64,000 nt of DNA from Thiomicrospira aerophila AL3 (lineage in GTDB: Bacteria; Pseudomonadota; Gammaproteobacteria; Thiomicrospirales; Thiomicrospiraceae), in assembly GCF_000227665.2 (NCBI RefSeq), contig NZ_CP007030.1, positions 1,736,001 to 1,800,000 on the forward strand, in the 5' to 3' direction. Below are positions 8,347-16,030 of the stretch, piece after piece (the stretch's first letter is position 1; every line of letters begins with the position of its first letter). Below the pieces are notes generated by a model. That model searched no databases. It had not been told where the DNA came from and saw nothing but the letters and a program-made list of their open reading frames with translations. The position numbers and the translations under genes were made by a program.

Positions 8347-8853
8347 TTATGTGCGTTTGTGATATTCGACAAAATCAAACGCAAAAGGATGGCGCGCATC
8401 CGCAGGGTGATGCTGGCGTGACACTTCACGCCAGGCCTGCCGATCAATGACCGGAAAAAACGCATCACCCTCAGGCGCGGCATCCACTTCAGTAATCAAT
8501 AAACGATCAACCTTATCCAGCCATTGCGCATAAAGTTGTGCACCGCCCATAATCACCACTTCGTCAGCCTCTGCCACCGACTCAATAGCCAGCTCAACAG
8601 AATCAAACACCTGAATACCCTCGGCTTGAAAATCAGGATTACGGCTAATCACTAAATTAGGGCGATTAGGTAAAGGGCGCGCACCAATTGATTCAAATGT
8701 TTTACGGCCCATAATGACCGGTTTATTTAAGGTTTGCGCTTTAAAATATTTTAAATCGTCCGGCAAATGCCAAGGCATTTGATTGTCTTTGCCTATCATG
8801 CGGTTTTTCGCCATCGCAACGATCATCATTAATTTTGGCCGCTTAAAACTCAT
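8347..8853 (-). CDS. folA: FolA, dihydrofolate reductase
   Basis: Reduces dihydrofolate to tetrahydrofolate with NADPH, regenerating the cofactor spent by ThyA. 168 residues, normal size. Visible motifs: [22 protein letters not shown] (substrate site with the Trp-His-Leu-Pro block and the catalytic Asp at LPDDLKYFK), [12 protein letters not shown] (NADPH binding) and VIMGGAQLY. Its start overlaps the thyA stop by 4 bp (ATGA), so the two are translationally coupled. Confidence 0.96.
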
Positions 8854-9683
8854 ACCGACACCTGGGCTTTAATATGCGGGTGCGATTGATAATTGACTAT
8901 TTCAAAGTCGTCAAATTGATAATCAAAAATCGAATCGGGTTTACGCTTAATCACCAGGCCTGGTAAAGGTAAAGGCTCACGCGTTAATTGCAATTTAGCT
9001 TGCTCAAGGGTGTTGTTATACAAATGCACATCGCCGCCCGTCCAGATAAATTCGCCCACTTCATAACCGGTTTGCTGTGCAATCATGTGTACCAATAAGG
9101 CATAGCTGGCAATATTAAACGGCACCCCCAAAAAGGTGTCGGCACTGCGCTGATAGAGTTGGCAAGATAAACGGCCATTAGCGACATAAAACTGAAAAAA
9201 AGCATGGCAGGTCGCCAGCGCCATTTTGCCCTGCTCGACATTGGCTTGCGGGCTGATTGACTCATCCGGCAAATCGGCCGGGTTCCAAGCCGTGACGATC
9301 ATACGCCGACTGTTCGGATTGGTTTTAAGCGTATCCACCACTTGTTGAATTTGGTTAATCACCTCACCATTAGGGCTTTGCCACGCCACCCATTGCTTGC
9401 CATAGAGCGGGCCTAAATCGCCGTTTGGCGTCGCCCACTCGTCCCAAATCCGCACCTGATTGTCTTTTAAATATTGAATATTGGTATCACCGGATAAAAA
9501 CCATAACAGCTCATGAATAATCGAGCGGATATGCAATTTTTTGGTGGTCACCAACGGAAAACCCTGCTGCAAATCAAAGCGCATTTGATAACCAAACACC
9601 GACAGCGTACCCGTACCGGTGCGATCACCCTTCTGCACCCCATGATCGATAATGTGTTGCAATAAATCTAAATATTGTTTCAT
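8850..9683 (-). CDS. thyA: ThyA, thymidylate synthase
   Basis: Methylates dUMP to dTMP with methylene-tetrahydrofolate. 277 residues from the ATG at 9683, the start that gives the family N-terminus [12 protein letters not shown]; an in-frame ATG at 9698 adds five residues. Motifs include [13 protein letters not shown], the catalytic cysteine in [13 protein letters not shown], and [19 protein letters not shown]. It is downstream of the Schlafen-like gene and coupled to folA, giving a pyrimidine-folate pair. Compared with other gammaproteobacteria, the usual direct lgt-thyA adjacency is broken by one inserted gene. Confidence 0.96.
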
Positions 9684-9720
9684 ACGATTTCTGTCCAAAC
9701 TTTTCTGTTATCAGTTTACT

Positions 9721-11037
9721 TTATTCTACAATCTTCCAATAGCCACTTTTTGTACTGCCCACACGCTTAAGAGCACCTGATTTTTTAAGCCTTTCGATAT
9801 GTTCTTTAATGGTAGCATCTGCCTTACCTAATCGTTGCGCCATTTCTTTTCGGGTGATTTTCGGATTGTGTTTGATCAAAACCAGCAACTTTTCTTGGGT
9901 GGTTTCTTGGGTGGTTTCTTGGGTGGTTTCTTGGGTGGTTTCTTCCGCTTTAAAAAAGGTAACATTCACCGAATGAAAACTGTATTCGTAACGGGGTTCG
10001 GGCAAGCCCATCTTTAAGCATTCTTGCACAATATTGTTGGTGCCTTTGCCCCAGCTTTCAACAAATCCGGCTTTGTAGAACACATTGGCAATCACCGGAT
10101 TAAACGGTTTCGATGTATGCTCTTGGTTGAACTTTTCGATTGGCACTTCGGGCGAGAGGGTCGCACCGTTACTCATCACAAGCCGCTCGTCGTACACACG
10201 AATTTGCAACACGGTTGTATCGCTATAGTCACGATGAATCAGCGCGTTTATTACCGCTTCACGTATGGCTTCATAAGGATATTCCAGCGTTTCGATGCGG
10301 TTTAGTCCGTCGTAGCTGATATAACTTTTTAGATATTTGGCACGCAACACATCAATAACTTGTTCAAGCTGTTGAAACAAATTACCTTCAATAATATCAC
10401 TGGTAATCAATTCGGTTGGACTTAAAAAACGCCCAATCTTGGCGTGTGCTTGAATAAAGTGTTTTTGCGGATTCTTGGCAAACAGTAACACAGCGGCACG
10501 CTTGAGTTTGTCGCCTTCGTACAGATTTAAGCGTTCAAGTAGTGTTTTGAGATCACGCTCATTAGCAATGGCAGGTACACGCTTTCGAGCCCAGTTTTTA
10601 AATGCTTCGATGGTGTCGAGATTAATGTCATCTAAAGTGAAATTATCGACTGCAACATCATCCCAGGTTTTGCCGTATTTTTTGAGTAGAAAGTTGGTGA
10701 GATTGCCGCCATTGAGTTCGAGTGTGTTACTCCCGCTGCGCTGATAAAACTTGCCTGATAAGGAAACCGGGGCGTAAGTGGCAGGTACTTTTATTTCTAA
10801 ATAATCAAGCTCCTGCTGGCGATGGGCTTTTATGTCAATAATCACGCCTAGACGGTTGTTAATTTTATTGGGCAGGGTTTCAAGCAGTTCGTTTAGGTTA
10901 TGAATACCAATCACTCGGCCTTGATCGTCCAAGCCAACGTACAACGAACCACCTTGCGTATTAGCAAAGGCACAGATGGTTTTGAGATAATCATCTTGCC
11001 AAACCCGTTTAAACTCGGTGGTTTGTGACTCAATCAT
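9721..11037 (-). CDS. Schlafen AlbA_2-domain protein with C-terminal winged helix
   Basis: 438 residues of the COG2865 type: N-terminal AlbA_2 (Schlafen-like) domain with [24 protein letters not shown] and [17 protein letters not shown], a middle region with [20 protein letters not shown], typical of the ATP-binding module of this family, and a C-terminal winged helix ([32 protein letters not shown], shown here only in outline). Between the last two sits a TTQE tandem repeat encoded by a 12-bp DNA repeat. Family members are called transcriptional regulators, but some act in stress or phage defence. It overlaps lgt by 4 bp and sits 37 bp before thyA, inside a housekeeping operon. Confidence 0.8.
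9891..9944. repeat. 12-bp tandem repeat, four full copies
   Basis: Unit TTTCTTGGGTGG at 9891, 9903, 9915 and 9927, plus six further bases, all identical. On the coding (minus) strand this encodes four TTQE units in the linker before the winged helix of the Schlafen-like protein. As the unit is a multiple of three, slippage would change linker length without a frameshift. Confidence 0.95.
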
Positions 11038-11831
11038 GGTTGTTTTTCAGCTTTTTTATACGCCCAAACCATTAAGCCGACCCCGATCACTATCATGGGC
11101 AGTGACAACAACATACCCATCGTGAGCCAGTCGCCCGCAAGATAACCTATGTGGGCATCCGGCACGCGAAAGAACTCGGCGACGATGCGAAACACACCAT
11201 AGGCAGCTAAAAACAGACCGGCGACCGACCCGGCCGGACGCGGCTTGGATGAATACCACCACAGCAACACAAACAGCACCAAGCCCTCCAAAAATGCCTG
11301 CAACAGCTGGCTTGGATACTTTTGCACCACCTCATTCAACATCGGATCATACACCCACATTCCCAATGGCGAATCGGTGATTTTGCCCCAAAGTTCGCCA
11401 TTGATATAATTGCCAATCCGCCCCAAACCTAAACCAATGGTGACCAGTGGCGCCACAAAATCGGCCACCGAAAAAATCGACAGGCCTTGTTTACGCGCAA
11501 ACAACCACATCGCCAGCGTGACACCTAACAGCCCGCCATGAAACGACATGCCGCCTTGCCACACCATCACCAATGACAGCGGATTGGCCACCAGGCCTGC
11601 GAAGTCGTAAAACAACGCATACCCTATGCGACCACCCAGCACCACACCCAACGCCGAATAAAACAGCAGGTCGCCGACCTTGTCCTTATCCCAAATCGGC
11701 GACGATTTGGCGCGATACACACCCAACAGCCAGGCGGCACCAAACCCCAGCACATACATCAGTCCATACCAGTGAATAGCAATCGGCCCAAGTGCTAAGG
11801 CCACAGGATCAATGACAGGATAACTCCACAT
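11034..11831 (-). CDS. lgt: Lgt, prolipoprotein diacylglyceryl transferase
   Basis: Inner-membrane enzyme that adds diacylglyceryl from phosphatidylglycerol to the lipobox cysteine of prolipoproteins. 265 residues, about seven membrane spans. Motifs: [14 protein letters not shown] at the N-terminus (conserved His-Trp-Tyr-Gly), [11 protein letters not shown], and the Lgt signature [15 protein letters not shown] at about 138-152. First gene of the operon with the Schlafen-like gene, thyA and folA on the minus strand. Palindrome at 11592. Confidence 0.95.
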
Positions 11832-11983
11832 AGCGGCTCAATCCTTAATGATAAAAAAATATTCCTAGTGTAAACCAATGCGCCACTGGCTACAATTAGA
11901 TAAAACCATCCGTAATGACTGTATTTAACCCCACTGTCATATTCAGCTTTTAGGATACATCTCAACTGATTAGGTAACCCATC

Positions 11984-12352
11984 ATGAGTAAAGCAACTGA
12001 CAAAACCATCAAATCCGGCTCAAATGTGTTTGAGCACCAATCACTGCAAAGTTTAGATGCCGTGCTTAATTATCTCGACACCATTCGGGATGGCTTTAAA
12101 CAAGGCCACCTCAAGCTCAGCCAAGAGGACGATGAAGTCACCTTAACGCCAAAAGGCTTAACCCGGGTCAAAATCAAGGCGAAACAAGCCAAACAGCATC
12201 AAGAAATTCGCATTACCCTGGCATGGATTCCAGATGAAACAGCGGGTGAGCATGATCAAGCCGATGCTTTATTATTAAGCAGTAAAGCAGGCAGCAAAAC
12301 GAAGAAGTCAAAAAAGACCAAGAAAAAACACCTTGACCAGGATGACGCATGA
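11984..12352 (+). CDS. Amphi-Trp domain protein (GAK-type locus)
   Basis: 122 residues. The part around residues 16-75 (VFEHQSLQSLDAVLNYLDTI, GHLKLSQEDDEVTLTPKGL, RITLAWIPD) fits my memory of the amphi-Trp domain, a small domain found almost only beside an HprK-related kinase and an ATP-grasp enzyme. The tail is very rich in lysine and serine/threonine (TKKSKKTKKKH), a possible target for modification or nucleic-acid contact. First gene of a tightly packed four-gene operon; it overlaps the next gene by 4 bp (ATGA). Function of the domain is not established. Confidence 0.75.
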   Translation: MSKATDKTIKSGSNVFEHQSLQSLDAVLNYLDTIRDGFKQGHLKLSQEDDEVTLTPKGLTRVKIKAKQAKQHQEIRITLAWIPDETAGEHDQADALLLSSKAGSKTKKSKKTKKKHLDQDDA

Positions 12353-13962
12353 AACCCAATGATGCCACGCCTGATGCACTGATTTTTTTATTATTAGAGC
12401 TGCAAAAACAAGTTCAGTGGCTACTGAAAGGCCTACAAAACAATGCGTCAGAAAGCATCACCAAAAGTCAAACACGCATAGCCTATATTAATAACTTTGT
12501 TAATCAACTGGGTTCACAGTTAGCTGCATTGCCTAACCCGCTGGCCTGGGCGCAACTAGGTTTTCATGGTCAACAAGCCAGTCAACAACTTACCACCCTC
12601 GCCAAACTGGTCGAAAAACAATCTGCAAAGACCGAGTCCGCGAAACTACACAAATCTCTCAGTAAACCTTTAAAACTGGCGGACAATGTGTTGCAGCAAT
12701 TGATTGAGCAACTCAAGCCTAGCTCGCCACATAGTGTCGAAGGTGTCACTGAAAACACTTTAACGAAAACCCGACTTCAACAACTTGAAATCTTTTCGCT
12801 GAAACTGCCCGATAGCCTGAACGACTATAAGCTGACCCTGTGTTTAGCGCAGTTTAGTGCCCAACTTAGCCAACTCACCGAACGCATTAGCCAACTGGCT
12901 GAGGGCGTTCACACCCAACCTGAACAATGGCGCGCAGTACAGGCGACACTGGCTCAAAGTGAAGCCGATAATCTCACCCGCGATGCGGGTAGCCTGCAAC
13001 TTGAAACCCTTGCCCATACTAAATCGGGTTGTGTGATTAGCAAGGTCGCCGCTGAGCATGAACCCCATGCCCCCCTTGGTGTGGTTAAACAAGGGCAGCG
13101 TGCCAAAATTAAACAAGAAAAAAGCCAGTTTGCTCGTTGGCAAAATTATGCACCAGACCTGGTACCCGATGTCTATGGCTATCATCGCGAAGGCGAGCAA
13201 GCGGCGTTATTTGTTGAATTTTTAGATGGCATTCGCCTCGATCACTGGCTGACTCAGGCCAAACCGAAAGGCTATTTAGCCAGCCTTGCGTTGGTATGCG
13301 AACGGCTCGAAGAGGTGTGGCGCAATCAGGCCATCACCCTAGCCAGCAAAGACAACCCGCCCAAACTGTTTATGCAGCAATTACAAGATCGTCTTAATGA
13401 TGTTTGGCACGTGCACGGCAACTTCAAAAAAGAACTGCATCAACTCGGTTCGCTTAAAGGTGTTAAGCTGCGCCAGTTAATTAAACAAGCGCATAAACTC
13501 GAACTGCAACTGCAACCGCCTCAGCATTATTTTTGTCATGGCGACCTGAATCTCGACAATATTTTATTGCGCCCAGACAACCAACAAATTTTTTTAGTTG
13601 ACCTCCATCGCTCCGGTTACCAAGACTATCTGCAAGATATTGCGGTGCTGATGGTGTCACACTTTCGGTTACAGCTATATGATGCCGAACACCGCCAACT
13701 GATTGGTCAAAGCATGACCCAGCTCTATCAGTTTGCTGAAACCTTTGCCGCATCACAACAAGATGCCATGATTCACCCGCGTTTGGCCCTTGGCCTTGCG
13801 CGCTCGTTTATTACCTCAACTCGCTTTGTATTAGATGAAACCCATGCTCGCGCCTTGTTTGATCGTGGTCGCTTACTGCTCACTTTACTGCTAGACTACG
13901 CCAAAAGCCATGATCCTGCTGACTTTCGGATAGATACGGAGATTTTTTATGGTCCTTACTAA
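12349..13962 (+). CDS. APH-fold phosphotransferase with helical N-terminus (GAK-type locus)
   Basis: 537 residues. The N-terminal half (1-200) is rich in Gln, Leu and Ala and mostly helical, without a recognisable domain. The C-terminal half looks like an aminoglycoside-phosphotransferase/choline-kinase-like fold: HYFCHGDLNLDNILLRPDN carries the HGDxxxxN catalytic loop and IFLVDLHRSGYQD the metal-binding Asp. An earlier VFVEFLDG-like hinge (ALFVEFLDGIRLDHW) also fits. Closest general analogues are LPS-core kinases and APH enzymes, so a small-molecule or sugar substrate is as likely as a protein. The gene overlaps both neighbours (4 and 14 bp). Confidence 0.7.
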   Translation: MKPNDATPDALIFLLLELQKQVQWLLKGLQNNASESITKSQTRIAYINNFVNQLGSQLAALPNPLAWAQLGFHGQQASQQLTTLAKLVEKQSAKTESAKLHKSLSKPLKLADNVLQQLIEQLKPSSPHSVEGVTENTLTKTRLQQLEIFSLKLPDSLNDYKLTLCLAQFSAQLSQLTERISQLAEGVHTQPEQWRAVQATLAQSEADNLTRDAGSLQLETLAHTKSGCVISKVAAEHEPHAPLGVVKQGQRAKIKQEKSQFARWQNYAPDLVPDVYGYHREGEQAALFVEFLDGIRLDHWLTQAKPKGYLASLALVCERLEEVWRNQAITLASKDNPPKLFMQQLQDRLNDVWHVHGNFKKELHQLGSLKGVKLRQLIKQAHKLELQLQPPQHYFCHGDLNLDNILLRPDNQQIFLVDLHRSGYQDYLQDIAVLMVSHFRLQLYDAEHRQLIGQSMTQLYQFAETFAASQQDAMIHPRLALGLARSFITSTRFVLDETHARALFDRGRLLLTLLLDYAKSHDPADFRIDTEIFYGPY

Positions 13963-14866
13963 GACCACGCTACACTCGCTCAAAATTGCTGTAATCGGCA
14001 TTCCTGGCAAATGGTCTAGTGAGCTGCTTGCTGACGCGCTCGCTGCCCGCACCGGCTTTAAACTGGTTATCGACTTGGGTGAAGTCGCGGCCGACTTAGC
14101 TAACAGTCGTTTGCTCTATCGTGGGCAGGATTTGGCTGAGCTTGATGGTTTAGTGATTAAAAAAGCCGCCACCCGTTATCATCCAGGCATGATTGACCGT
14201 TTAGAAATGCTGCGCATTGCCGAATACCGCGGCGTGAAGGTGTTTTCATCACCGGAAAAAATTATTCGTCTTGTCGATCGTCTAAGCTGTACTGTAGCGC
14301 TACGTCAAGCCGGGATTGCTATGCCGCCCACCCTGGCAACCGAAAGTCTGGATGAAGCCCTTGAGGCAGTGCAATATTTTGGTGAAGCGATTATCAAGCC
14401 GCTCTTTTCAACTAAAGCCAAGGGGATGATTTGGTTGTCAGCCACAACGCCGTTAAAAAAACTGCGTGATCAACTGACTGAGTTTCAGCAACAACAAGGC
14501 TTTTTTTATATTCAACAAAAAATTACCCTGCCCAACCAGGATTTAGGCCTGATGTTTTTAGGCGGGCAGTATCAAGGCACCTATGCACGGGTTAATCAAA
14601 AACATAGTTGGACCACTAGCACCAGTGAGGGCGGCAAATATGCCCCGGCCGAGCCTCAGCCAGATACGCTCGCGATGGCTGAACGGGCCCAAGCGGTATT
14701 TAACCTTGATTTCACCACGGTAGATATGGCCGAAACAGCCGATGGCCCCATGTGCTTTGAAGTGTCCGCATTTGGTGGCTTTAAAGGGGCATACGATGCA
14801 CTAGGTATGAATATGGCCGAAAAATATGCCGACTATGCTATTCAACAGATTCAGTCTGCCAAATAA
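13949..14866 (+). CDS. ATP-grasp enzyme of the GAK type
   Basis: 305 residues with a RimK-like ATP-grasp layout: an N-terminal pre-grasp domain (to about 105), the subdomain with FGEAIIKPLFSTKAKGM (ATP-binding lysine and glycine loop), and a C-terminal part with VDMAETADGPMCFEVSAFGG, where Glu/Asn-type metal ligands are expected. Such enzymes ligate a carboxylate to an amine or thiol through an acyl-phosphate. Order amphi-Trp, kinase, ATP-grasp, HprK-related kinase matches the neighbourhood called GAK. The start overlaps the upstream gene by 14 bp. Substrate unknown. Confidence 0.78.
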   Translation: MVLTKTTLHSLKIAVIGIPGKWSSELLADALAARTGFKLVIDLGEVAADLANSRLLYRGQDLAELDGLVIKKAATRYHPGMIDRLEMLRIAEYRGVKVFSSPEKIIRLVDRLSCTVALRQAGIAMPPTLATESLDEALEAVQYFGEAIIKPLFSTKAKGMIWLSATTPLKKLRDQLTEFQQQQGFFYIQQKITLPNQDLGLMFLGGQYQGTYARVNQKHSWTTSTSEGGKYAPAEPQPDTLAMAERAQAVFNLDFTTVDMAETADGPMCFEVSAFGGFKGAYDALGMNMAEKYADYAIQQIQSAK

Positions 14867-14890
14867 TTATTAAATAGAAAAGTACCGCTT

Positions 14891-16030
14891 ATGACTGCAG
14901 ACCAACCCGCAGACCAGACTTCAGCCACGCAACTTATTCGTCTTACCGGCTGGCAACTGTTGATTCGTGCGCAAGATGCGCGCCTTCGCAAACAACTCGC
15001 CGACTACTTTGGCCCACTTATTAGCCATGACCAACAAGCGATTGTTGCGCACCTGCAACAGGATAATGCGCCTTGCTTAACCCTACATCTCAGCGCTTCC
15101 GAGCAGTTAACGCAACTCTATGCGCTGCCTTTTCAAGATTGGCAACGCGAGCCAGGTAAACAAGGTCGCAAAGAAGCCGTATATGATTTAAGCCCGAGTG
15201 ATCGGCTCGTTCACAAGGTTCGCACTGGCTTAATACTCTGGCAACATCCGACCCAGTTGCGTGCGATGGGTGATCTGCTCGCCCACCCCAACCAAGTGAT
15301 TAATTTTATACTCAGTCAATACTTAAGCTGGCGGCTCAATCAAAGTGCGCCCAATCAATCTGCAAACCAACTCGGCCATTGTGCTGCGCTGCGTTATCGC
15401 AATTATGGCATTGCCATCGCTGGATTTTCAGGCGGCGGAAAATCAACACTGATGCTGCATTTATTACGCGAAGGCGATGCCTTTATTAGCAACGACCGGA
15501 TTGTATTGCAGCGCATGGCTAATCAAGATCAATCAGCTCAGCCCAAACTCATTTGCTATGGCATCCCCAAGCAACCCCGAGTCAATCCGGGCACCTTGCT
15601 CAATAATCCGGCATTAAGCGGCATTTTGCCAGACCCTGCGCGCTATAAGGCGTTAAGCGAGCCTGCATTGCGGGCGCTAGAAGAAAAGTACGATGTCATG
15701 GTGACTAAACACTTTCCCAACCAACCCTATCAGGCCAGCACACCACTTGATCTGCTGATTATTTTAGATTGGCAGGCAGACGCCACCGACCCGACCCGGT
15801 TGGTGCCGCTCAATATCCAAGCCGAACCTAAGTATTTATCGGCTATTATGAAATCGGCCGGCCCGTTTTATCAAAATGCACAAGGTCTTACCCCCACACA
15901 ACCGCAGCATCCCAATCCATACGATTATTTGCCATTATTGCAAGACTGCACCATGATGCGCTTAACAGGTAAGGTTGATTTTCAAGCGGCCAAAGCCACA
16001 ATCGATGCCTATATAGCCCAGCATAACTAA
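14891..16030 (+). CDS. HprK-related kinase B (GAK-type locus)
   Basis: 379 residues. The central YGIAIAGFSGGGKSTLMLHL contains a P-loop of the HprK/PEP-carboxykinase type (GxSGxGKS), followed by DAFISNDRIVLQ, the usual Asp-containing strand. The N-terminal 150 residues are poorly conserved. HPr kinases phosphorylate a serine on a small carrier protein; no HPr gene is near, so the lysine/serine-rich amphi-Trp protein in the same operon is a candidate partner (inference). The stop is at 16030, touching the convergent arsJ stop at 16031 with no spacer. Confidence 0.78.
   Translation: MTADQPADQTSATQLIRLTGWQLLIRAQDARLRKQLADYFGPLISHDQQAIVAHLQQDNAPCLTLHLSASEQLTQLYALPFQDWQREPGKQGRKEAVYDLSPSDRLVHKVRTGLILWQHPTQLRAMGDLLAHPNQVINFILSQYLSWRLNQSAPNQSANQLGHCAALRYRNYGIAIAGFSGGGKSTLMLHLLREGDAFISNDRIVLQRMANQDQSAQPKLICYGIPKQPRVNPGTLLNNPALSGILPDPARYKALSEPALRALEEKYDVMVTKHFPNQPYQASTPLDLLIILDWQADATDPTRLVPLNIQAEPKYLSAIMKSAGPFYQNAQGLTPTQPQHPNPYDYLPLLQDCTMMRLTGKVDFQAAKATIDAYIAQHN

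Follow-up and report, generated by a model that had tools for sequence, protein, structure and literature searches.

The described systems closest to the GAK genes are PhoU, the kinases of the APH fold (such as 5-methylthioribose kinase and APH(3′)), the RimK/MptN/LysX ligases of the ATP-grasp fold, and HPr kinase/phosphorylase. GAK itself is a named gene set represented by TIGR04354 to TIGR04358, which we take to be a single group of five models, as is partly indicated by their names. An earlier prediction, made from the DNA alone (the original prediction), supposed that GAK biochemistry is unknown and, consistent with this, we found none published in a search limited to open-licence PMC literature. 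Here we compare these systems with a GAK locus at positions 11984-16030 of a 64,000-nt stretch of the Thiomicrospira aerophila AL3 genome (contig NZ_CP007030.1, positions 1,736,001 to 1,800,000; hereafter the window). We find that the APH-fold kinase of this locus is a constant core GAK member, that sequence profiles and a predicted model identify its N-terminal part as a diverged PhoU domain, and that Pho-box-like repeats are frequent upstream of the operon in the window's family. The features of the locus are as follows.

11923-11940, + strand: Pho-box-like repeat, ATTTAAC-CCCA-CTGTCAT, matching the consensus at 10/14 positions with a perfect second unit, 61 nt upstream of the first gene
11984-12352, + strand: amphi-Trp protein, 122 aa (TIGR04354, 68.4 bits, cut-off 31; PF20068, 31.3 bits)
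12349-13962, + strand: PhoU-APH fusion kinase, 537 aa, constant GAK member (PF01636, 45 bits, cut-off 23.2)
12373-12900, + strand: diverged PhoU-like helical region of the kinase, residues 9-184, with six long helices (from the family profile and a predicted model)
12988-13959, + strand: APH-fold kinase domain (HGDLNLDN at 13537-13560, DLHR at 13600-13611)
13949-14866, + strand: GAK ATP-grasp enzyme, 305 aa (TIGR04356 grasp_GAK, 453.5 bits, cut-off 300)
14891-16030, + strand: HprK-related kinase B (HprK-B), 379 aa (TIGR04355 HprK_rel_B, 249.2 bits, cut-off 200)

As the original prediction had it, the four co-directional open reading frames (ORFs) at 11984-16030 are tightly packed, two of the junctions being overlaps, of 4 and 14 nt, and the third a gap of 24 nt, and the assignment to GAK is borne out by model search, since three of the proteins score above the curated NCBIfam cut-offs (TIGR04354, TIGR04355 and TIGR04356). 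The window's own genome, a single contig of 2.16 Mb, gave no match to CofD_rel_GAK (TIGR04357), which scores 541 and 449 bits at other loci, and none to the XXXCH protein model (TIGR04358), in a search that had no positive control. We did not treat TIGR04357 as defining GAK, given that a CofD-like protein occurs in just 20/56 loci longer than 13 kb. Among the examples that we scanned, neither the PhoU-APH kinase nor the histidine phosphatase, metallophosphatase or SixA-Nudix proteins of GAK loci matched any GAK-named model. The nearest named relative among the best 80 of 492 matches is Thiomicrospira sp. ALE5, whose ATP-grasp enzyme is 96% identical to that of the window.

The kinase had been described as an addition to the GAK operon, a description that absence of linkage in all other genomes would have refuted. 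Checked across genomes, the gene is linked, and it is not an addition. In a phylum sample of 299 genomes, TIGR04356 scored above its cut-off in 12 (199 genomes match at E 0.001, the remainder being weaker and RimK-like), and an alignment search for the kinase at E 1e-20 returned the same 12 genomes and no others. The kinase gene lies immediately before the ATP-grasp gene in all eleven of these loci other than the window's. One genome (G033, locus L043) was left out of the 12, having a partial ATP-grasp gene that scores 273.7 bits, below the cut-off, and no adjoining kinase. The same pattern holds for the window's family, which is represented by 62 genomes. The ATP-grasp gene exceeds the cut-off in 32, and it is these 32 that carry the kinase (E <1e-100); a further genome (G349) has both genes broken, and 29 have neither. 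Within the family, the two genes come and go together. We also examined 80 loci fetched by ATP-grasp sequence alone, these being the best 80 of 492 confirmed matches, a set that leaves distant GAK loci unsampled. The kinase is present in 76 of them, mostly directly before the ATP-grasp gene; in L059, L074, L086 and L091 it lies further along the same cluster. All four loci without it are cut by contig ends near the ATP-grasp gene: L075 starts 139 nt before that gene, and L055, L060 and L061 stop 0.7-1.6 kb after it, their order up to that point being that of L059, where the kinase follows. Every locus longer than 13 kb (56/56) has the kinase, and on plasmids the kinase and the ATP-grasp gene were found in the same five records. 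Outside Pseudomonadota, GAK was seen at a single locus, from Rhodopirellula (L106). We conclude that the kinase is a constant core member of GAK, as constant as the ATP-grasp gene.

Two observations on the state and location of these genes may be recorded here. The G349 operon (G349:C5:178610-183389) is decaying, with a stop and a break in the kinase gene and the ATP-grasp gene in two pieces, while both phosphatase genes are open. Plasmids of Pseudooceanicola algae and Tritonibacter mobilis (L157, L158), both marine Rhodobacterales, carry GAK from the kinase to the amphi-Trp gene and are predicted to be non-mobilizable; plasmid-borne kinases are annotated either as 'phosphotransferase' or as 'aminoglycoside phosphotransferase family protein'.

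The N-terminal 200 residues of the kinase, previously called novel, are a diverged PhoU domain, as judged from sequence profiles and six predicted helices, with no fold match. Pfam PhoU (PF01895) is matched at E 0.01 by 59 of 72 members of the kinase family. A profile of the family matches five solved PhoU sequences, among them 4q25 (E 1.9e-11, profile positions 18-223), and over approximately positions 18-233 it matches separate proteins, mostly of 245-260 aa, in genomes of the window's family. Two of these proteins were fetched and both are PhoU by Pfam; on inspection by eye, a pstB-like ABC gene precedes one of them, and a response-regulator gene and a histidine-kinase-like gene come after each. 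The predicted model of the window kinase (mean pLDDT 82.7) has six long helices in its N-terminal part. In Foldseek and in a second structure search, the listed rows cover the kinase half only. Unlike described PhoU proteins, the domain is here fused to an APH-fold kinase. The ExxxD-type motif of PhoU has a role in metal binding; many relatives of the window kinase keep forms of it such as EQMGD, and others have it altered. The window protein has lost it, as have L044, which is closest to the window, and the Sulfurivirga-type loci L056 and L064.

The C-terminal half has the fold and the HxDxxxxN and D catalytic residues common to APH-fold kinases. An alignment of 72 sequences shows no variation at H397, D399, N404 or D418, in agreement with the original prediction that its HGDLNLDN and VDLHRSG motifs look active. 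The best structural matches are to small-molecule kinases, with 5-methylthioribose kinase first (Z 21.9, rmsd 4.3, 313 aligned). PADLOC, which we used to consider a phage-defence kinase, gave just a weak match to PD-T4-6, at 23.9 bits, and we rejected this candidate. Taken as a whole, the earlier interpretation was right about GAK and about an active-looking kinase, and wrong about the 'added' kinase and the novel N-terminus.

The Pho-box consensus is CTGTCAT, 4 nt, CTGTCAT. We scored regions of 140-150 nt upstream of the first GAK gene, taking mechanical ORF starts as operon starts and at least 11 of 14 positions as the threshold. In the window's family, 10/15 GAK upstream regions reach the threshold, compared with 1/130 other genes of the same loci. 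The window's repeat at 11923-11940 has counterparts between -60 and -63 in L146 (11/14), L148 (11/14) and L153 (13/14), and L044 has a site of 10/14. Replication in 13 further genomes of the family gave 10/13 regions at or above the threshold, one of these regions belonging to a phosphatase pair that has moved away from the operon in genome G322. Of 29 regions, window included, 20 are at threshold with the 4-nt spacer, compared with 0-6 for any other spacer length between 0 and 8, 1 on the opposite strand and an average of 0.53 for permuted units. The regions share a median identity of 42%; dropping one of each of five pairs at approximately 70% identity or more leaves 18/24. In G322, the histidine phosphatase and metallophosphatase genes have moved by about 190 kb and both pieces carry a 13/14 box; that of the piece remaining in place ends 85 nt upstream of amphi-Trp. 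The spacing test and this split operon are the better evidence for the Pho box. An earlier scan of both strands over wider regions, in 75 usable loci, had given 18 at 11 or above where about 3.8 were expected from shuffles; the narrower upstream test places the excess in the window's family.

The lone metallophosphatase of the window's genome (G000:C1:469550-470749), which is located away from the operon, is preceded by TTGTCAA-GCAA-GCGTCAT, a 10/14 site that is also found in G358. A weak PstS-like match, which may be due to chance, lies about 6.5 kb before this gene (G000:C1:462204-463022).

The common gene order at GAK loci is PhoU-APH kinase, ATP-grasp, HprK-B, a SixA-Nudix fusion in some loci, histidine phosphatase, metallophosphatase and amphi-Trp; a CofD-like gene in divergent orientation is a frequent neighbour. 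Of the 56 loci above 13 kb, all have amphi-Trp, 54 have HprK, 51 have each of the two phosphatases, 30 have SixA-Nudix and 20 have CofD. A further Nudix family occurs in 22/80 loci, and a motif search placed it immediately before the kinase in 18. The window's family has the order histidine phosphatase, metallophosphatase, amphi-Trp, kinase, ATP-grasp, HprK; both phosphatases are missing from the operon of the window and from those of its two sisters, L044 and L146. The smallest loci, of the Sulfurivirga type (L056, L064 and L152), retain only amphi-Trp, ATP-grasp and a PhoU-APH kinase whose protein is strongly diverged, and therefore this trio probably holds the core reaction. No HprK was found at these three loci or at L083, the Sulfurivirga-type genomes having been searched for it at the locus only. 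L151 is probably L064 and L150 probably L047, and neither was counted twice in the box tests. Loci L086 and L091 are rearranged (ATP-grasp, histidine phosphatase, metallophosphatase, kinase, HprK), and their CofD-like proteins (L086:15632-17434, L091:16474-18246) are about 600 aa long and score 188 and 176, compared with about 450-550 for most others. The yvcI-yvcJ-yvcK-crh genes of B. subtilis (Nudix, CofD-like, HPr-like) may be an analogous arrangement. At L036, a CHAD-domain gene (L036:1094-2590) and, by eye, a ParA-like gene lie just before the kinase.

In the window's family, both phosphatases go with GAK genomes only. Strong metallophosphatase matches (E <1e-100) occur in 25/33 GAK genomes and 0/29 GAK-less genomes, and histidine-phosphatase matches in 21/33 and 0/29. 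The count of 25 omits short weak matches (E 1e-3 to 1e-7, approximately positions 104-169) and includes G346, G322 and G358, which have a stop within the matched stretch. The window's genome has no histidine phosphatase of the GAK-type family by the same search that was positive in 21 genomes. Neither this enzyme nor the PhoU motif has survived in the window lineage, in which the metallophosphatase is retained at another site. Both phosphatase families have invariant residues at their catalytic motif positions. The histidine-phosphatase profile matched no solved structure at E 1e-8, and the sole solved match of the metallophosphatase profile was 2z72, a protein-tyrosine phosphatase, at E 9e-4.

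The ATP-grasp enzyme had been called a carboxylate-amine ligase; the ATP-grasp assignment stands, and the ligase label is doubtful because Ser replaces the RimK-type Asn in 81/81 GAK sequences. We compared these 81 with 17 RimK-type sequences, five of which were checked and exceed the NCBIfam RimK-family cut-off. In known ATP-grasp enzymes, the Asn two residues past a metal-binding Glu is itself a metal ligand. It is present in 17/17 RimK-type sequences, whereas the window protein reads E271-V-S273 (Ser273, codon 14765-14767), the Glu being kept. The GAK enzyme has the fold of the RimK/MptN/LysX ligases and K150, Q189, D198, R214, D259 and E271 in common with them, but differs by R71K, K111R, Q156K and R200G in 81/81 sequences and by T or S in place of N224 in 80/81, and it scores below the TIGR00768 cut-off (98.6 versus 143.4 bits). 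On these substitutions, ligase activity should not be assumed.

The amphi-Trp protein is predicted to form a helix at residues 24-40 followed by four strands and a disordered Lys-rich tail (mean pLDDT 75.8). In 60 sequences, F16 and P56 are invariant, and H18, S20, Q22, G37, G41, D47 and W81 nearly so. Ser20, in an FxHxSLQ motif just before the predicted helix, is kept in 59/60 and could be a phosphorylation site. The original prediction had this protein carry or receive a group in a modification pathway, and it may act as such a carrier or acceptor. The richness in Lys noted there is real: beyond the last Trp, 4-10 Lys are present in 12/15 proteins of the window's family, and the tail of the window protein, as also in L044, is the longest of the family at 41 residues. 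Outside the family, nearly all tails are of 15-23 residues with 0-6 Lys (that of L071 could not be measured in this way). HprK-B has a P-loop, GFSGGGKS (15422-15445), and a following NDR motif (SNDR, 15488-15499), both invariant in 32 sequences and both common to HPr kinase/phosphorylase. Its profile matched P-loop proteins among solved structures, HprK weakly (1jb1, E 0.017), and one unrelated protein. HprK-B differs from HPr kinase/phosphorylase in having its own family, TIGR04355, and in scoring only 23 bits with TIGR00679, which has a cut-off of 240.

Upstream of the locus, the window has a 438-aa ORF (9721-11037, - strand) in which TTQE is repeated in tandem close to the C-terminus, between thyA (8850-9698) and lgt (11034-11831). 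It looks like an insertion, since lgt and thyA, named by eye, adjoin in the sisters L146 and L147.

The reading that we favour, and that we consider evenly poised between right and wrong, is that the window carries a reduced GAK operon with the PhoU-APH kinase at its core, for a pathway that both adds and removes phosphate and that PhoB activates, in the window's family, when phosphate is limiting. The kinase would phosphorylate a small molecule or a protein-borne group, and its PhoU domain may relay the state of phosphate, or of Pst/PhoR, to the kinase half. PhoB would bind the upstream repeats in the family. The ATP-grasp enzyme might activate or join a carboxylate, or itself phosphorylate, and HprK-B could provide a second phosphorylation step, the two together extending or fixing the phosphorylated group. 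Phosphatases and Nudix enzymes would reverse the product, and the amphi-Trp protein may be a scaffold or an acceptor.

Several observations weigh against this reading. The substrate and the order of steps are proposals only, as is the role of the amphi-Trp protein, whose fold search gave no match better than E 1.2. The window kinase alone does not match PF01895, and it has AQFSA at the place aligned with the ExxxD-type motif. The window's own Pho-box site is below threshold and weak when taken alone, as 6/130 control genes also reach at least 10. Among the permuted units, one that shifts the motif by a single base scores highest, at 14/29, and just 3/10 pstS promoters of the family, used as a positive control, reach 11/14. 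The related genomes in these counts are not independent, so that p-values calculated for the first set and for its replication look stronger than they are. Weak short metallophosphatase-like matches do occur in GAK-less genomes. Lastly, there was no enrichment of Pho boxes at threshold in other clades (1/58 upstream regions versus 6/413 other genes), in Sulfurivirga-type loci (0/3) or upstream of Nudix-first operons (0/18), and phosphate control may therefore be local to the window's family.

Other mechanisms are also possible. GAK could be a system of peptide or protein modification, in which the amphi-Trp protein would receive an amino acid from the ATP-grasp enzyme, acting as a ligase, and phosphate from the two kinases, in a RiPP-like or HPr-like manner with Ser20 as the site. 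HprK homologues act on proteins or peptides, the amphi-Trp gene is present in 56/56 loci longer than 13 kb, and the lexapeptide kinase-like LxmK is among the structural matches of the kinase (Z 18.8), all of which fit such a system, as do the conservation of Ser20 and the Lys-rich tails of the family. However, the tail is short or absent outside the family, the RimK-type ligase Asn is replaced in the ATP-grasp enzyme, the best structural matches of the kinase are small-molecule kinases, and the Nudix and phosphatase genes point to metabolites with phosphoanhydride or phosphoester bonds; we consider modification unlikely, while giving it more weight than the explanations below.

The accompanying hydrolases could instead point to metabolite signalling akin to inositol-pyrophosphate or polyphosphate turnover, with the ATP-grasp enzyme acting as a kinase and the Nudix, SixA-like and metallophosphatase proteins hydrolysing its product. 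The combination of ATP-grasp, histidine phosphatase and Nudix resembles the eukaryotic PPIP5K/DIPP parts list (see PMC11836120), and the PhoU domain and Pho boxes would suit a signal of this type. The CHAD gene upstream of the kinase in L036 is also relevant, since the CHAD domain binds polyphosphate, according to PMC6537752, but such a gene was identified at this one locus only. Moreover, the nearest relatives of the ATP-grasp enzyme by sequence are the RimK/MptN amino-acid ligases, and the window proteins gave no direct link to inositol phosphates or polyphosphate, such that we regard signalling of this kind as improbable. That an aminoglycoside-resistance gene sits by chance in the GAK operon is, in our view, hardly credible: 3/5 plasmid records do name homologues 'aminoglycoside phosphotransferase family protein', but the kinase is below the listed NCBIfam APH cut-offs (47.6 bits with the APH(3′) model NF033068, against 205), carries a PhoU domain and co-occurs one-to-one with the ATP-grasp gene.

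Returning to the favoured reading, a phosphate-linked pathway built around the PhoU-APH kinase, we tentatively extend it, at somewhat less than even confidence, to the suggestion that GAK is an unrecognised phosphate-economy pathway, comprising a small-molecule kinase gated by PhoU, an ATP-grasp enzyme whose metal site is altered, an HprK-like kinase and dedicated phosphatases and Nudix enzymes, under PhoB control in at least one family. Its product would be a phosphorylated compound or a mark on the amphi-Trp protein. If true, this would be, to our knowledge, the first enzymatic role assigned to a kinase-fused PhoU domain. Gene names such as 'aminoglycoside phosphotransferase family protein' are misleading for GAK kinases. 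With a constant PhoU-kinase, phosphatases found only with GAK in the window's family and Pho-box repeats upstream there, a named gene set for which we found no printed function now has a concrete growth condition in which to study it, phosphate limitation, and a defined set of enzymes to assay.

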